Shown here: positions 21,064 to 26,014 of the stretch, piece by piece
Position numbering within the stretch: position 1 is the first letter of the stretch
How the letters are laid out: every line of letters begins with the position of its first letter
From: Alloactinosynnema sp. L-07
GTDB taxonomy: Bacteria > Actinomycetota > Actinomycetes > Mycobacteriales > Pseudonocardiaceae
Length of the DNA stretch: 64,000 nt
Assembly (NCBI RefSeq): GCF_900070365.1
Contig: NZ_LN850107.1
Span: 5,952,001 to 6,016,000, forward strand
Direction of reading: 5' to 3'
Made by a program: the position numbers and the translations under genes
The notes under the pieces: model-generated
Database searches by the model: none
Told to the model about the DNA's origin: nothing
What the model saw: only the letters and a program-made list of their open reading frames with translations

Positions 21064-21738
21064 GTGCCAGGCATCAGATCGGCGGGGCCGATCACCAGAC
21101 CGGCGGGCGCGGCGAAGGAGAGTTCGCTGACCCTCGACCGCGGCCTGGCGCTGCTGCAGGCCGTGGCCGACTCGGACACCGAGGCCCCGACGATCAGCGA
21201 CCTGGCCAACGCCATCGGCGCTTCGCGGGCTGCGGTGTACCGCCTGCTGGTCCCGTTGCAGGCGCGCGGTTTGGTCCGGCGTGAGGGTTCGCGGGTGCGG
21301 TTGGGCCTGGGGCTGCTGCAACTGGCCGCCAAGGTCGCGCCGCAACTGCGGATCGCCGCCCTGCCCGCGTTGCGGATGATCGCTGAGGAAGTCGGAGCCA
21401 CCGCCCACCTGACGGTGGCCGACGGCGACGAAGCCCAGGCGGTCGCGGTGGTCGAACCGTCGTGGACGGCGTATCACGTGGCATACCGGGTCGGCACCCG
21501 CCATGCGCTGCACAAGGGCGCGTCGGGCAAGGCGATCGGGCTGCGGTCGGATGAGCAAGGCTGGGTCGGCTCGACGGGCGAGTTGCAGGCGGGAGCTTTT
21601 GGTATCGCGGCACCGGTTTTGGGGGTCGCGGGCCTGCGGGCGAGTGTTGGCGTGGTGACCTTCGAGCCGTTGGACGGTTTGACGGTGGGCCCGAAAGTGA
21701 TCGCCGCCGCCGCCGCTGTGGCCGACGCGCTGCGCTGA
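21064..21738 (+). CDS. IclR-family transcriptional regulator
   Basis: The 224-residue regulator starts with GTG directly after the fahA stop. It has an N-terminal winged helix (SLTLDRGLALLQAVADSD, ISDLANAIGASRAAVYRLL, GLVRREGSRVRLG) and a C-terminal effector domain that is shorter than usual but keeps HKGASGKAIG. As the last gene of the operon it probably controls hmgA and fahA through the palindrome at 18955-18969, with a pathway intermediate as ligand. Confidence 0.88.
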   Translation: MPGIRSAGPITRPAGAAKESSLTLDRGLALLQAVADSDTEAPTISDLANAIGASRAAVYRLLVPLQARGLVRREGSRVRLGLGLLQLAAKVAPQLRIAALPALRMIAEEVGATAHLTVADGDEAQAVAVVEPSWTAYHVAYRVGTRHALHKGASGKAIGLRSDEQGWVGSTGELQAGAFGIAAPVLGVAGLRASVGVVTFEPLDGLTVGPKVIAAAAAVADALR

Positions 21739-21817
21739 GTTTCTCGGGTTGCAACGGCTCATGCGAAGGGGTGGATCACGCCCGTGACCGGCGCGCGCTG
21801 AGCCTGCTTTCCTTACT

Positions 21818-22721
21818 GTGTCAGGAATGGGAGAGCGATACCGCGCGGTGGCCCGAGAACTGGGCGTGATGTTGAAAGAACAACGCGAAGCGGCGGGCCT
21901 GACGTTGCTGCAACTCAGCGCGAAGCTCGGCTCGGCCGCGGCGACGCTGCACCGGATGGAGTCGGGTGCGCGTGCCGAGACGTCGGAGGTCGAGGTTGTT
22001 CACTACCTCGCGGCCTGCGGTGCGAGGCATGCGGACGTCCAGCGGGTCGCGGCGTTCTCGCGAGAGTCCAGCCATGATCGCGGGTATTGGCTCTCACAGA
22101 GCAGCAAGTGGGCAACTTGCGCTCGCTGGTCTTCCACGAGGCGACCGCGAACCGATCTGTGGCCCATGAACCAGAGGTCATTCCGGGTCTGCTGCAAACC
22201 GAGCCCTACTTCCGCGCGCTGTTCGCTGACTTCGGCATGTCGAGCGAAGAAATGGATGCGTTCGCCGCCGTGCGGATGGAACGGCAGCTGGTCATGTTCC
22301 GCAACAACCCTGCGAAGTTCACATTTTTGTGCACGAGCGTGCTTTGCGCATGGAGGTCGGTGACTACCGGATCATGACCGAGCAAATGCTGGCCATGATG
22401 TTCTTCGCCGACCAGTGGAACATCGGGATTCGGGTGATCCCGGCGGGCGCTCGTCACCGAGCATTGTTCGGCGGATCATTCCGGTATCTCGGCTATCCAA
22501 AGCACAAGAAATCGCTCGTCTACGTCGACGCCACAGTGGGAACATTGTTCCTTGAGGATCCCAAGTACGTCCAGCCTTTTCGAACCCTTCTGCCGAAGAT
22601 AGCGAACGTCTCGCTGGATGTGGGAGAATCCCGGGTGCTCATCGCCAAGCTGGCCGATGAGTACGACCGGGCGGAAGGCGGCTGGGATGACGCGTGGCGG
22701 GTGGCGCAAGAGCGGCTATAG
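21818..22721 (+). pseudogene. XRE-family regulator with DUF5753 domain, two frameshifts
   Basis: The N-terminal 90 residues form an XRE helix-turn-helix (LGVMLKEQREAAGLTLLQLS, then ATLHRMESG). The DUF5753 domain continues in two other frames: near 22088 the match passes to TEQQVGNLRSLVFHEATA...PEVIPGLLQTEPYF, and near 22325, at a run of five T, to VHERALRMEVGDYRIMTEQM up to the stop at 22721. One base missing at each point would restore a normal ~300-residue protein. Either the gene is dead or the assembly has two single-base errors. It pairs with the overlapping DUF397 gene. Base composition is visibly less GC-rich than in the flanks. Confidence 0.85.
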
Positions 22722-22863
22722 CAGCAATCCGAGCGGCGACTGCGTCGAAGTCCTGCTCAGCGCCCGCGCCGCGGCCGTCCGCGACTCCAAGAACGCGGAC
22801 GGCCCATCGCTCACACTCGCCGCAGGCACCTGGGCGGCCTTCGTTGCCTCTCTGACCTCGTAG
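22687..22863 (+). CDS. DUF397 protein
   Basis: The 58-residue protein starts at ATG 22687 and overlaps the end of the XRE gene by 35 bp in another frame. It has the full DUF397 pattern: WRKSGYSS, GDCVEVL, AVRDSKNADGPSLTL and WAAFVASL. DUF397 proteins are the usual small partners of XRE/DUF5753 regulators in actinobacteria and probably modulate them. It is the first intact gene before the radical SAM operon, 59 bp upstream of it. Confidence 0.88.
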   Translation: MTRGGWRKSGYSSNPSGDCVEVLLSARAAAVRDSKNADGPSLTLAAGTWAAFVASLTS

Positions 22864-22922
22864 ACAAGACTGCCGCTGGTTCGACACGCTCAATCCTGTT
22901 GTTCAGCCGAACTGGAGGATAA

Positions 22923-23819
22923 GTGAATCCGTCGTTCGTGTGGCTTGAGATCACCGGCAAATGCCAGTTGAGTTGTTCGCATTGCTATGCGGACTCCGGC
23001 CCGCAGGGCACCGACGGCGCAATGACACCAGACAACTGGGGCAGCGTCATCGACCAGGCCGTGGGCTTGGGTACCGAGATGGTGCAGTTCATCGGTGGCG
23101 AGCCCACCCTCCACCGCGCATTGCCCGACCTTGTCGGGCGTGCGTTGGGTCGCGGGCTGCAAGTCGAGGTGTTCAGTAACCTCGTGCATGTGCCCACGTC
23201 GCTATGGGAAGTCTTCACACAACCCGGTGTGAGCCTCGCGACGAGTTACTACGCCGACAGCGCCGATCAACACGAGTCCATCACCAAAGGACGCGGAAGC
23301 TACGGCCGGACGAAGGCGAATATCATCGAGGCTCTGCGGCGCTCAATTCCGCTGCGAGTCGGAGTGATCGACGTGCTAGATGGGCAGCGCGTCGAGCAAG
23401 CACGCGAAGAACTCGCAGCCCTCGGTGTCACAGGCGAGGTGCGCGTCGACCATCTGCGGCAGGTCGGCCGAGGTATCCGCAAGCAGCAACCGAGCCTAAG
23501 TCAACTCTGCGGACACTGCGCACAAGACAAGATCGCCGTGTCCGCGACCGGCGACGTGTGGCCGTGTGTGTTCTCCCGCTGGTTGCCTGTGGGCAACGTC
23601 CGACACGACGCTCTCGCCGACATACTCGCTGGACCGACGATGGTGACGACCACGGCCACCCTGCGCGAGCATTTCGGCGGCGACTCCCCGGACTTGGCCA
23701 AGCCCTGCGACCCTCAGTGCGGGCCGAACTGTAGCCCGGCGTGCAACCCGTCATGCTGGCCAACGGGCGCTGGACCCTGTGGCCCCAAGGGCGGATGTCA
23801 GCCCAACTACGACAAGTAG
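22923..23819 (+). CDS. Radical SAM/SPASM-type protein with Cys-x-Pro-x tail
   Basis: The 298-residue protein starts at GTG 22923 with GGAGG 4-5 bp upstream. The radical SAM cluster motif is C14-x3-C18-x2-C21 (CQLSCSHC), followed by the GGEPT motif for SAM binding. A shortened SPASM-like region, CGHCAQDKIAVSATGDVWPC, suggests auxiliary clusters as in peptide-modifying maturases. The last 37 residues are unusual: tetrads CDPQ, CGPN, CSPA, CNPS, then CWPT and CGPK, with seven Cys at 262, 266, 270, 274, 278, 286 and 292. The tail could bind metal or act as a built-in substrate; both are guesses. It forms an operon with the ATPase and kinase genes. Confidence 0.88.
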   Translation: MNPSFVWLEITGKCQLSCSHCYADSGPQGTDGAMTPDNWGSVIDQAVGLGTEMVQFIGGEPTLHRALPDLVGRALGRGLQVEVFSNLVHVPTSLWEVFTQPGVSLATSYYADSADQHESITKGRGSYGRTKANIIEALRRSIPLRVGVIDVLDGQRVEQAREELAALGVTGEVRVDHLRQVGRGIRKQQPSLSQLCGHCAQDKIAVSATGDVWPCVFSRWLPVGNVRHDALADILAGPTMVTTTATLREHFGGDSPDLAKPCDPQCGPNCSPACNPSCWPTGAGPCGPKGGCQPNYDK

Positions 23820-23829
23820 GAGCGAATGA

Positions 23830-24573
23830 GTGTTCGTCAGCCGCGCGTATGTCCCTGACGGGCTACGCCCCGACAATCTCCGGAGCTGGCCGTACACGGT
23901 TCCGGCGGTCGCCGGCGTCGTCGAACAAGGCATCGAGTTCACCCACCCGGTGACGTTTCTGGTCGGCGACAACGGTACAGGCAAGTCGACCCTTGTCGAG
24001 GCCATCGCCGAGGGGTTCAAGCTGGACGCGCGCGGCGGACGAGCAGCACGAAAGTCGGGCGACGCCAATCCCACCAAGACTCCGCTTGGTGAGGTGCTGC
24101 GGCTGGAGACCACCGCCAAGGGGGCGGGCATGTTGGCCGGTCCACGCTTGAAGAAGAAGGGCTTCTTCCTGCGTGCCGAAACCGCGTTCAGCATGACTGA
24201 GAACCTTGGCGGTGTTCCCGGTTACTGGGACGACAACACGGCCGAGATGAGCCACGGCGAGGGCTTTCTCGCCGTGTTCCGGTCGATGTTTCGCGACCCT
24301 GGCTTCTACGTGATGGACGAACCCGAGTCGGCGCTGTCGTTCACGGCCTGCCTGCACCTCGTCGCTCTGATGTACGACCTTGGGCAGTCAGGGGCACAGG
24401 TCGTGTGCGCGACGCACTCGCCGATCCTGGCCTCGACGCCGGGCGCTGACATCATCGAACTGGGCGAGCACGGACTGCGGCGCGTGAAATGGGCCGACCT
24501 TCAACTCGTTGATTCTTGGCGTCGATACCTGGAAAACCCCGGCGCCTACCTACGCCACCTCACCGCGCCATGA
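23830..24573 (+). CDS. AAA/ABC-type ATPase (AAA_21-like, single domain)
   Basis: The 247-residue protein starts at GTG 23830, 7 bp after AGGAG. It has Walker A GDNGTGKST (about 47-55), signature-like MSHGEGFL, Walker B FYVMDEPESALS and the switch His in CATHSPILAS. There is no nuclease or membrane domain, so it is a compact soluble ATPase like those of the OLD/RecF-like group. Such ATPases occur as partners in small accessory systems. It overlaps the next gene by 4 bp (ATGA). Its role beside the radical SAM protein is unknown. Confidence 0.88.
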   Translation: MFVSRAYVPDGLRPDNLRSWPYTVPAVAGVVEQGIEFTHPVTFLVGDNGTGKSTLVEAIAEGFKLDARGGRAARKSGDANPTKTPLGEVLRLETTAKGAGMLAGPRLKKKGFFLRAETAFSMTENLGGVPGYWDDNTAEMSHGEGFLAVFRSMFRDPGFYVMDEPESALSFTACLHLVALMYDLGQSGAQVVCATHSPILASTPGADIIELGEHGLRRVKWADLQLVDSWRRYLENPGAYLRHLTAP

Positions 24574-25418
24574 ACGGATATCTCGCGGCTGAACCGCAGA
24601 CCGATCCTGACGCGACGTTCCGCAACTTCCAGCGGCACAACGTCGGCCGAGCCGCAGACCATTTCGGTGTGACGGTGACAGGCACGCCGTCGTTCGGATG
24701 GCGGCTACGCACGATCGGCACGCCGGTCGACGGTCGACACGGCGCGTGCTGGTTGCGCGTGGTGTCCGAGGAACCACAGTGGGCGCAAGGCCACGCGTGG
24801 ACGGGCAACCTGGACGGGAACACCATCACGACAGTGCATAAGCCGCGAGTCCTCGACGTGTTCGAGTGGCCGGAACGTGACTGGCGCAATCAGCGTGCCG
24901 AACTGATGACCCTGATGCCGGGTGAGCCGTGCTCGTCGACCGATGTTCTGTGGACGCTCCCGAACGTTTCGGCCGCGTGGTGGCGCGACCTACGGCAATC
25001 CGTCGACACCCTCGCGGTAATTCCTACCGAGAGGACATACGCCGACCAAGTACGTGTGACCGACCGCATCCGTACGCGCTTCGGTGACACCGTCGACACC
25101 ACGGTCACCCACTGGGCGACAGCGCACAGCGACCTGCATTGGTCCAACCTGATGCGACCAGACTTCGGCATCCTCGACTGGGAACTGTGGGGAACCGCGC
25201 CGGAAGGGACCGATGCGGCGACCCTGCTGTGCCACAGCCTGCTGGTGCCAACCGTCGCCGAGCAGGTGCACGACCTGTTCGCCGACAGGCTCGACACCCC
25301 GTCGGGTCGTATCGCTCAGTTGAACGTTGCGGCCAGACTGCTCAACCGAATCGACGGCGGAGACTATCCCGACCTCGCCGAGCCTCTCCACCGACACGTG
25401 CGCACGCTGTTGATCTAA
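24570..25418 (+). CDS. Phosphotransferase-fold (APH-like) protein
   Basis: The 282-residue protein starts at ATG 24570 inside the ATPase stop. The kinase C-lobe is recognisable: HSDLHWSNLM gives the catalytic Asp and the Asn, and ILDWELWG gives the metal-binding Asp. The N-lobe is aberrant and I see no clear ATP-loop lysine. Family members phosphorylate small molecules or aminoglycosides, but within this operon a modification or accessory role is equally likely. It ends 4 bp into the convergent transporter gene. Confidence 0.82.
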   Translation: MNGYLAAEPQTDPDATFRNFQRHNVGRAADHFGVTVTGTPSFGWRLRTIGTPVDGRHGACWLRVVSEEPQWAQGHAWTGNLDGNTITTVHKPRVLDVFEWPERDWRNQRAELMTLMPGEPCSSTDVLWTLPNVSAAWWRDLRQSVDTLAVIPTERTYADQVRVTDRIRTRFGDTVDTTVTHWATAHSDLHWSNLMRPDFGILDWELWGTAPEGTDAATLLCHSLLVPTVAEQVHDLFADRLDTPSGRIAQLNVAARLLNRIDGGDYPDLAEPLHRHVRTLLI

Positions 25419-26014
25419 CCGAAGATCGCCGTGTAGGCGGCCAGGGCGGCGAACACCGCGAACACCACGCCCGCGACTCGCTGGATCAGGTGTGGCTTGA
25501 TCCGCTCGGCGATCTTCTTGCCCAGCAGGACCGCTATCCCCGCCACCGACACCAGCGCCGCCCACGCCCCCAACCCGACCCACACCGGCTCCGCGTAACG
25601 AGCGCTCAACCCCGCCGTCGCGATCTGTGAAGCGTCCCCCCATTCGGCGGCGAAGAGGACGCCGAAGGAGGTCAGGGCGGCGCGCCAGAAGGAGGTTGGG
25701 CCGTTGGGGCCAACCGTGGTTTCGGCGGAGTCCGAGTCGGTGGAGAAGCCTTCCCGAAGCAGCAATAGGGCGCCGATGGCGAACAGCACGGCCACGACGG
25801 CGGCGACCACCCGATCGGGTAACAAGGTCAGCACGCCGCCGAAGGTGGCGGCGATCACGCACTGGACGGCGAAGGCCGCGCTCACCCCGGCGAACACCGG
25901 CAGGGCGCGGTAGCGGGTGGTCAGGATCAGCGTCGCCACCAGGGTCTTGTCGGGCAACTCCACGACGAAGACCAGGGCGTACGCCGAGACGAAGGCGATC
26001 AGTGCGGTTCCCAC
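25415..26014 (-). CDS. TMEM165/GDT1 (UPF0016) family cation transporter
   Basis: The 199-residue protein has six hydrophobic helices and the two diagnostic repeats ELPDKT (first half) and EWGDAS (second half). Family members move Mn2+ or Ca2+ out of the cytoplasm, probably in exchange for protons. GTG 26014 is chosen because the first helix starts directly after it; an extension to 26080 is Pro/Arg-rich and unlikely. It is divergent from cydA. Confidence 0.88.
   Translation of the reverse strand: MGTALIAFVSAYALVFVVELPDKTLVATLILTTRYRALPVFAGVSAAFAVQCVIAATFGGVLTLLPDRVVAAVVAVLFAIGALLLLREGFSTDSDSAETTVGPNGPTSFWRAALTSFGVLFAAEWGDASQIATAGLSARYAEPVWVGLGAWAALVSVAGIAVLLGKKIAERIKPHLIQRVAGVVFAVFAALAAYTAIFG

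Follow-up and report, generated by a model that had tools for sequence, protein, structure and literature searches.

Borosins are described as RiPPs (ribosomally synthesized and post-translationally modified peptides) whose precursor and modifying enzyme share one polypeptide, with auto-modification of the precursor followed by cleavage (PMC11285071), and the same article gives most RiPP protein isoaspartyl methyltransferases (PIMTs) as requiring a cyclised precursor. The radical S-adenosylmethionine (rSAM) maturases SkfB and CteB are reported to contain an auxiliary cluster with an open site (PMC6231123), graspetides are reported to be accompanied by TIGR04188 methyltransferases and by DUF5753 and HATPase regulators (PMC8939145), and CaoK phosphorylates its own precursor peptide according to PMC9486802. 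Here we compare with these systems an operon encoding an rSAM protein, an AAA ATPase and an APH-fold kinase, found in a 64,000-nucleotide stretch of the Alloactinosynnema sp. L-07 genome (contig NZ_LN850107.1, positions 5,952,001 to 6,016,000; hereafter the window). An initial annotation made from the DNA letters had picked out this operon in an islet of lower G+C content (GC) and had suggested an undescribed peptide or protein modification system or a defence module. The operon and its low-GC setting are borne out by our analysis, and the evidence best supports an undescribed system for peptide modification. We propose that this system is RiPP-like and that its precursor and its rSAM maturase are parts of one protein, a reading to which we assign a probability of roughly two in three. 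The operon has the following features:

22923-25418: rSAM-AAA-APH operon, behind the DUF397 gene and the broken XRE/DUF5753 gene
22923..23819, plus strand: radical SAM protein of 298 amino acids, a twitch/SPASM-type maturase with a C-terminal tail of Cys-x-Pro (CxP) units
22962..22985, plus strand: CX3CX2C radical SAM motif (C14, C18, C21), invariant in 132 aligned sequences
23508..23567, plus strand: CX2CX15C auxiliary-cluster motif (C196, C199, C215), invariant in the same 132 sequences
23634..23705, plus strand: C-terminal helix (residues 238-252, from the model) and variable linker ahead of the tail
23706..23816, plus strand: proposed fused precursor or core peptide, residues 262-298, with seven Cys, all in C-x-P
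23830..24573, plus strand: AAA/ABC-type ATPase with Walker A (GDNGTGKST) and Walker B (FYVMDEP) motifs, read by eye
24570..25418, plus strand: APH-fold kinase, proposed to tailor the tail (model with a predicted local distance difference test score, pLDDT, of 96)
25125..25148, plus strand: kinase catalytic loop HSDLHWSN, with H186 and N193 invariant and D188 nearly so in a 121-sequence alignment

The tail obeys a simple rule. In 224 homologues, x-Pro follows 1310 of 1344 tail Cys and C-x-P accounts for only 10 of the 1444 Cys in the enzyme parts; these homologues come from 239 listed, the other 15 having been dropped and not split by the pattern. Shuffling each tail yields 19% C-x-P, and reducing the set to 34 representatives at 60% enzyme identity leaves 156 of 158 tail Cys in the motif, with 17 different residues at the x position. 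Taken as controls, four further rSAM proteins encoded in this genome have no C-x-P for the 14 Cys of their C-terminal 150 residues. Tails were started at the first Cys in proteins and at the first CxP in loci, the latter being a choice that favours the rule. The rule extends to Paraburkholderia and Rhizobium plasmid copies of only 34-37% identity (L112 and L113), in which 4/4 and 6/8 Cys, counted from the first CxP on, stand in CxP. Around the fixed unit the tails vary: they contain from 2 to 12 Cys at spacings mostly of 4-10, those of P0269, P0281, P0304 and P0321 include repeated modules, and the P0199 and P0268 tails are only 34% alike on enzymes that are 84% alike. The mean fraction of the top residue is 0.71 over the enzyme, 0.42 over residues 226-258 and 0.57 over residues 259-298, and AlphaFold models the last of these segments as disordered (pLDDT <50). 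On a viral contig (L130, 4992-6038), two near-identical Asp-type cores are separated by an unlike spacer in an rSAM open reading frame that reaches the end of the contig sequence available.

In a few loci the tail has come apart from its enzyme. In-frame stops sever the two in L005, L075 and L110, and in L089 a transposase-like gene (about 740-2320 from the rSAM start) separates the enzyme part from a tail-like CxP stretch. Several genome matches were marked with one TGA, and recoding of this codon was considered and rejected for the six loci compared (L083, L086, L088, L091, L094 and L095): the open frame of each holds the tail before the stop, and TGA is its natural end.

The enzyme that bears the tail belongs structurally with peptide maturases. 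PF04055 and PF13186 both exceed their cut-offs, the AlphaFold model has an SkfB-like maturase fold, and the closest solved folds are SkfB, CteB, EpeE and SuiB. We saw no RiPP recognition element (RRE) in residues 1-252, which are filled by the rSAM/twitch fold; a barrel strand lies at residue 5, and SkfB aligns from its residue 104. None of the 25 models listed of the 55 NCBIfam models matched reaches its cut-off, the best score being 63.9 bits for StsB (cut-off 625); SkfB scores 43.4 (cut-off 300) and the mycofactocin enzyme MftC 41.1 (cut-off 265), all far short of the mark. The initial annotation's statement that the system is unlike known rSAM peptide systems thus holds for StsB, SkfB and mycofactocin; the FxsB model, which it had also named, is not among the 25 listed. 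We account in another way for its remark that no precursor gene is visible, the likely precursor being the CxP tail of the rSAM protein. A six-frame scan of 61 loci, at a threshold of at least three CxP per 40 residues, returned rSAM tails and scattered matches that we judged to be chance in GC-rich frames; two-CxP peptides would escape this threshold, and seven loci have two-CxP tails.

The same 61 rSAM loci (60 fetched plus that of the window, with partners scored by profiles built from the loci themselves) reveal recurrent partner genes. An APH kinase lies close to the rSAM gene in 22, a PIMT-like methyltransferase in 25 and a member of a second kinase family in four, and no partner was scored in 10; two of these ten run into the end of their contig (L004, L014), and L071 has a diverged methyltransferase that scores 112 bits, below threshold. 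The methyltransferase of L079 reaches 227 bits on TIGR04188, below the cut-off of 380. AAA is close by in 16 of the 22 APH loci, so that all three genes stand together in 16/61. A search started from APH gave, among 29 loci besides the window's, an AAA match in 24 and an rSAM match in 18 within 1.5 kb flanks; uncurated CxP stretches were flagged at 20 of the 29, the one in L175 being on the minus strand and looking like chance. The genes therefore do co-occur elsewhere, a point on which the initial annotation had made its proposal depend. Matches to the rSAM protein are patchy, being found in 8/249 genomes of the order (E <= 1e-40), 33/394 of the class (1e-30) and 4/396 of a phylum sample, own genome included in each case; its 2581 homologues at E <= 0.001 set a maximum for the group, as rSAM enzymes of other kinds will be among them. 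APH homologues at 1e-40 occur in 84/297 family genomes. Two loci merit separate mention. L099 has a truncated methyltransferase remnant (893-2110 from the rSAM start) after its rSAM-APH pair, a possible trace of partner exchange, and in L114 (1-7958, a Streptomyces plasmid) about 4 kb separate an rSAM-PIMT locus from the tgmABC cluster of a graspetide.

The composition of the tail matches the partner gene. Tails beside APH have 5-11 Cys and contain CxPxCxP in 21 of 22 cases, compared with 2-5 Cys and 5 of 23 cases for tails beside the methyltransferase. In this comparison, which also gave the Asp fractions below, the L005 tail is only the piece beyond its in-frame stop. Methyltransferase tails have a mean Asp fraction of 0.165 versus 0.048 in APH tails, carry a D[DSGN][SNDGTA] motif in 22/23 versus 1/22, and place Asp between the first two Cys in 21/23. 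A Tyr directly after the last CxP is found in 16/16 loci with APH and AAA, 0/6 with APH only, 10/23 with the methyltransferase, 1/4 with the second kinase and 0/6 partnerless loci. When enzyme similarity is controlled, tail similarity correlates with partner similarity both among 22 methyltransferase loci (partial r 0.49) and among 18 APH loci (0.46), with 0/2000 permutations reaching either value. The converse correlation of tail with enzyme, partner controlled, is 0.11 (315/2000) for methyltransferase loci and -0.15 (1732/2000) for APH loci. Tail similarity thus tracks the partner enzyme and not the rSAM domain to which the tail is attached.

One locus displays an exchange. The L095 enzyme shares 66% identity with its counterpart in L093, where the partner is APH, and 50% with that of L094, but its CxP tail (23/24 residues) and its methyltransferase (84%) match L094, and the nucleotide similarity switches about 700-800 from the gene start, near the enzyme/tail junction. 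L095 is a natural chimera in which tail and partner were exchanged as a unit. Linkage explains part of this, tail and partner gene being neighbours, but if the two enzymes share the tail as a substrate, it would be expected to change under the rSAM enzyme while remaining beside the gene that tailors it. In its variation and in its pairing with the partner the tail behaves like a core peptide.

In the mechanism that we envisage, the rSAM/twitch domain (about residues 1-252, no RRE) would work on the flexible CxP tail of its own chain, or of the other chain in a dimer, and the Cys of this tail would be presented to an open site of the auxiliary Fe-S cluster held by CX2CX15C. The outcome at each C-x-P unit would be oxidation or a cross-link. 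With only Cys and Pro fixed in the tail, our best guess, held with low confidence in detail, is a thioether derived from Cys, the other option being oxidation at Cys or Pro. The modified tail may next be phosphorylated on Ser/Thr or on its C-terminal Tyr by the APH-fold kinase, whose model matches both APH kinases and LxmKY, a RiPP kinase complex; the AAA ATPase would play an accessory part. Where relatives have the PIMT-like methyltransferase instead of the kinase, it would convert the Asp residues that lie between CxP units, a reaction known from the PIMTs of graspetides and lanthipeptides.

Several observations weigh against this proposal. Release of the tail is unexplained, no protease or exporter having been recognised among the recurrent neighbour families listed, not all of which are annotated. 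The counts that match tail to partner ignore descent, and the matching is partly clade-bound; moreover, the tail adjoins the partner gene, so linkage alone could co-transfer both. Among close relatives of the window's protein the tail is strongly conserved, unlike many core peptides. The CxP rule is followed in only six of the eight Cys of L113 and three of the six of L115 (a Streptomyces plasmid copy, 37% identity), and no partner was scored for the two proteobacterial plasmid copies, L115 or a Mycobacterium abscessus prophage copy. The start of the tail also falls roughly at the point where late cluster ligands are found in twitch/SPASM enzymes, and the match to PF13186 (residues 196-266) extends into the first tail Cys, so some of these residues may ligate a cluster. 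This last pair of points, with the high Cys content, leads to an alternative in which the tail belongs to the enzyme itself as a metal-binding element, providing auxiliary Fe-S ligands or a metallothionein-like extension, while a small molecule or another peptide serves as the true substrate. The position of the tail after the last twitch helix is where late ligands are placed in SPASM/twitch enzymes (PMC6231123). Cys of such uneven number and spacing fit poorly with a ligand set, however, as does a segment modelled as disordered. The CX2CX15C motif supplies three invariant Cys independently of the tail, as in MoaA, which has a three-Cys cluster motif. That MoaA cluster is reported to leave an open site (PMC6231123). 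A ligand role would moreover leave unexplained the fixed Pro at +2, the repeated modules, the partner-dependent Asp-rich and multi-Cys types and the exchange of tail with partner gene, and we consider it unlikely.

The mobile settings of the system invite a different interpretation, namely a viperin-like or other defence or phage-conflict module in which the rSAM enzyme makes an antiviral small molecule, the kinase and AAA ATPase are its partners and the tail is regulatory. The copies in L001, L003 and L011 have integrase, endolysin or tail genes nearby, the M. abscessus prophage copy (two records) is beside integrase and lysis genes, and further copies are on 28 plasmid records and 20 viral contigs, although the L117 and L126 tails among these are the same as those of L001 and L011 and look like repeats. 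These settings fit cargo useful to mobile elements, and the low-GC islet also speaks for the defence reading. A search for a named defence system gave only generic ATPase matches and weak ones to pVip (46.5 bits), and the protein misses the NCBIfam viperin cut-off (38.5 versus 180 bits); we regard a defence role as rather improbable. In the M. abscessus prophage copy, L110 (prophi68-1, 2071-2862), the in-frame stop comes just ahead of the CxP stretch, and neither a kinase nor a methyltransferase was scored as its partner. It is least probable of all, and in our estimation very improbable, that APH and AAA are loosely linked passengers of a mosaic island, for example a small-molecule or drug kinase, that do not act with the rSAM protein. 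APH shares the drug-kinase fold, five of the 29 APH-first loci have neither AAA nor rSAM within 1.5 kb, and AAA was not found near six of the 22 APH loci, an absence that also counts against our proposal; yet gene spacing is tight here, the genes co-occur across many genomes and APH-type tails co-vary with APH.

A fused precursor remains our preferred reading, and in the window its genes are contained in a discrete islet, with these additional features:

21064-21738: IclR flanking gene
21739..25414, no strand assigned: low-GC islet between IclR and GDT1, defined by GC and sister-genome comparison
21818..22721, plus strand: XRE/DUF5753 regulator, broken across three reading frames (two apparent frameshifts)
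22687..22863, plus strand: DUF397 protein of 58 amino acids, intact (PF04149, 68.6 bits)
25415, minus strand: stop of the GDT1 flanking gene

GC is 0.638 over 21739-25418, and none of 604 same-size windows of the 64 kb is that low. GDT1 is present in 12 of 15 other genomes of the genus searched; in 10 of these 12 IclR adjoins GDT1 and the islet genes are absent, and in the other two IclR is not visible within the 1.5 kb fetched. The islet is therefore an insertion of about 3.7 kb, a small gene cluster that was horizontally acquired. The nearest named relatives are Actinokineospora proteins (P0124), which suggests, without proving, that genus as a source. We found no terminal repeats, in that 21651-21900 and 25331-25500 share no 10-base word, direct or inverted. 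The initial annotation had placed an XRE/DUF397 pair at the head of the module, and here we part from it: only 3/61 loci, window included, have such genes within 3 kb upstream in the same orientation (13/61 on either strand), and the XRE gene is broken here, with HTH_31 in one frame and the halves of DUF5753 in two others. The same genome has a second, diverged copy of the system (G000:C1:4377081-4380920; L017, within L031). It comprises an rSAM protein with an 11-Cys tail (59% identity over residues 4-281), APH and an AAA gene in convergent orientation. A third APH homologue lies at G000:C1:5654023-5654799.

None of the open-licence papers listed in our literature searches showed an rSAM maturase fused to its precursor. 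RiPPs and enzyme-precursor fusions are known kinds; to our knowledge, such an enzyme has not been described in combination with this motif and an exchangeable partner. If our reading is correct, a group of actinobacterial rSAM proteins, numbering at most the 2581 homologues given above, would hold RiPP precursors that genome mining overlooks because it seeks small precursor genes beside the maturase, and the system would offer a one-protein test bed for Cys/Pro-directed radical chemistry in which naturally exchanged tail cassettes make the substrate question directly testable. More tentatively, and as a possibility that we would not yet favour, the system may represent a new class of self-modifying rSAM proteins, mainly actinobacterial with proteobacterial plasmid relatives, whose single- or multi-core CxP substrate forms an exchangeable C-terminal cassette evolving with a downstream kinase or PIMT and which serves prophages and plasmids as a peptide weapon or exclusion factor.

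Compared with the systems described at the outset, the locus shares features with each. Its likeness to borosins of the OphMA type lies in the proposed enzyme-precursor fusion, in which the tail, visibly fused to the enzyme, would be its substrate; borosins have a backbone N-methyltransferase domain, whereas here a radical SAM/twitch domain is combined with separate kinase or PIMT partners, and the fusion logic of borosins would thus be extended to rSAM chemistry. SkfB and CteB act on Cys-containing peptides, as we propose for the CxP tail, but they, like SuiB, carry an RRE and act on a precursor that is a peptide of its own, in contrast to the CxP motif, the lack of an RRE and the substrate proposed in cis here. 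Actinobacterial graspetides (tgmABC) have a PIMT related to the alternative partner and similar DUF5753 XRE and HATPase regulators; they differ in their ATP-grasp enzyme, a domain absent among the islet proteins scanned, and in their separate tgmA precursor, which the islet lacks. Finally, the kinase resembles those of class V lanthipeptides and thioamitides (CaoK, LxmK and TvaE) in its APH-like fold and catalytic residues, but in place of the HopA1-like lyase of class V lanthipeptides, absent among the islet proteins scanned, the operon encodes an rSAM maturase.

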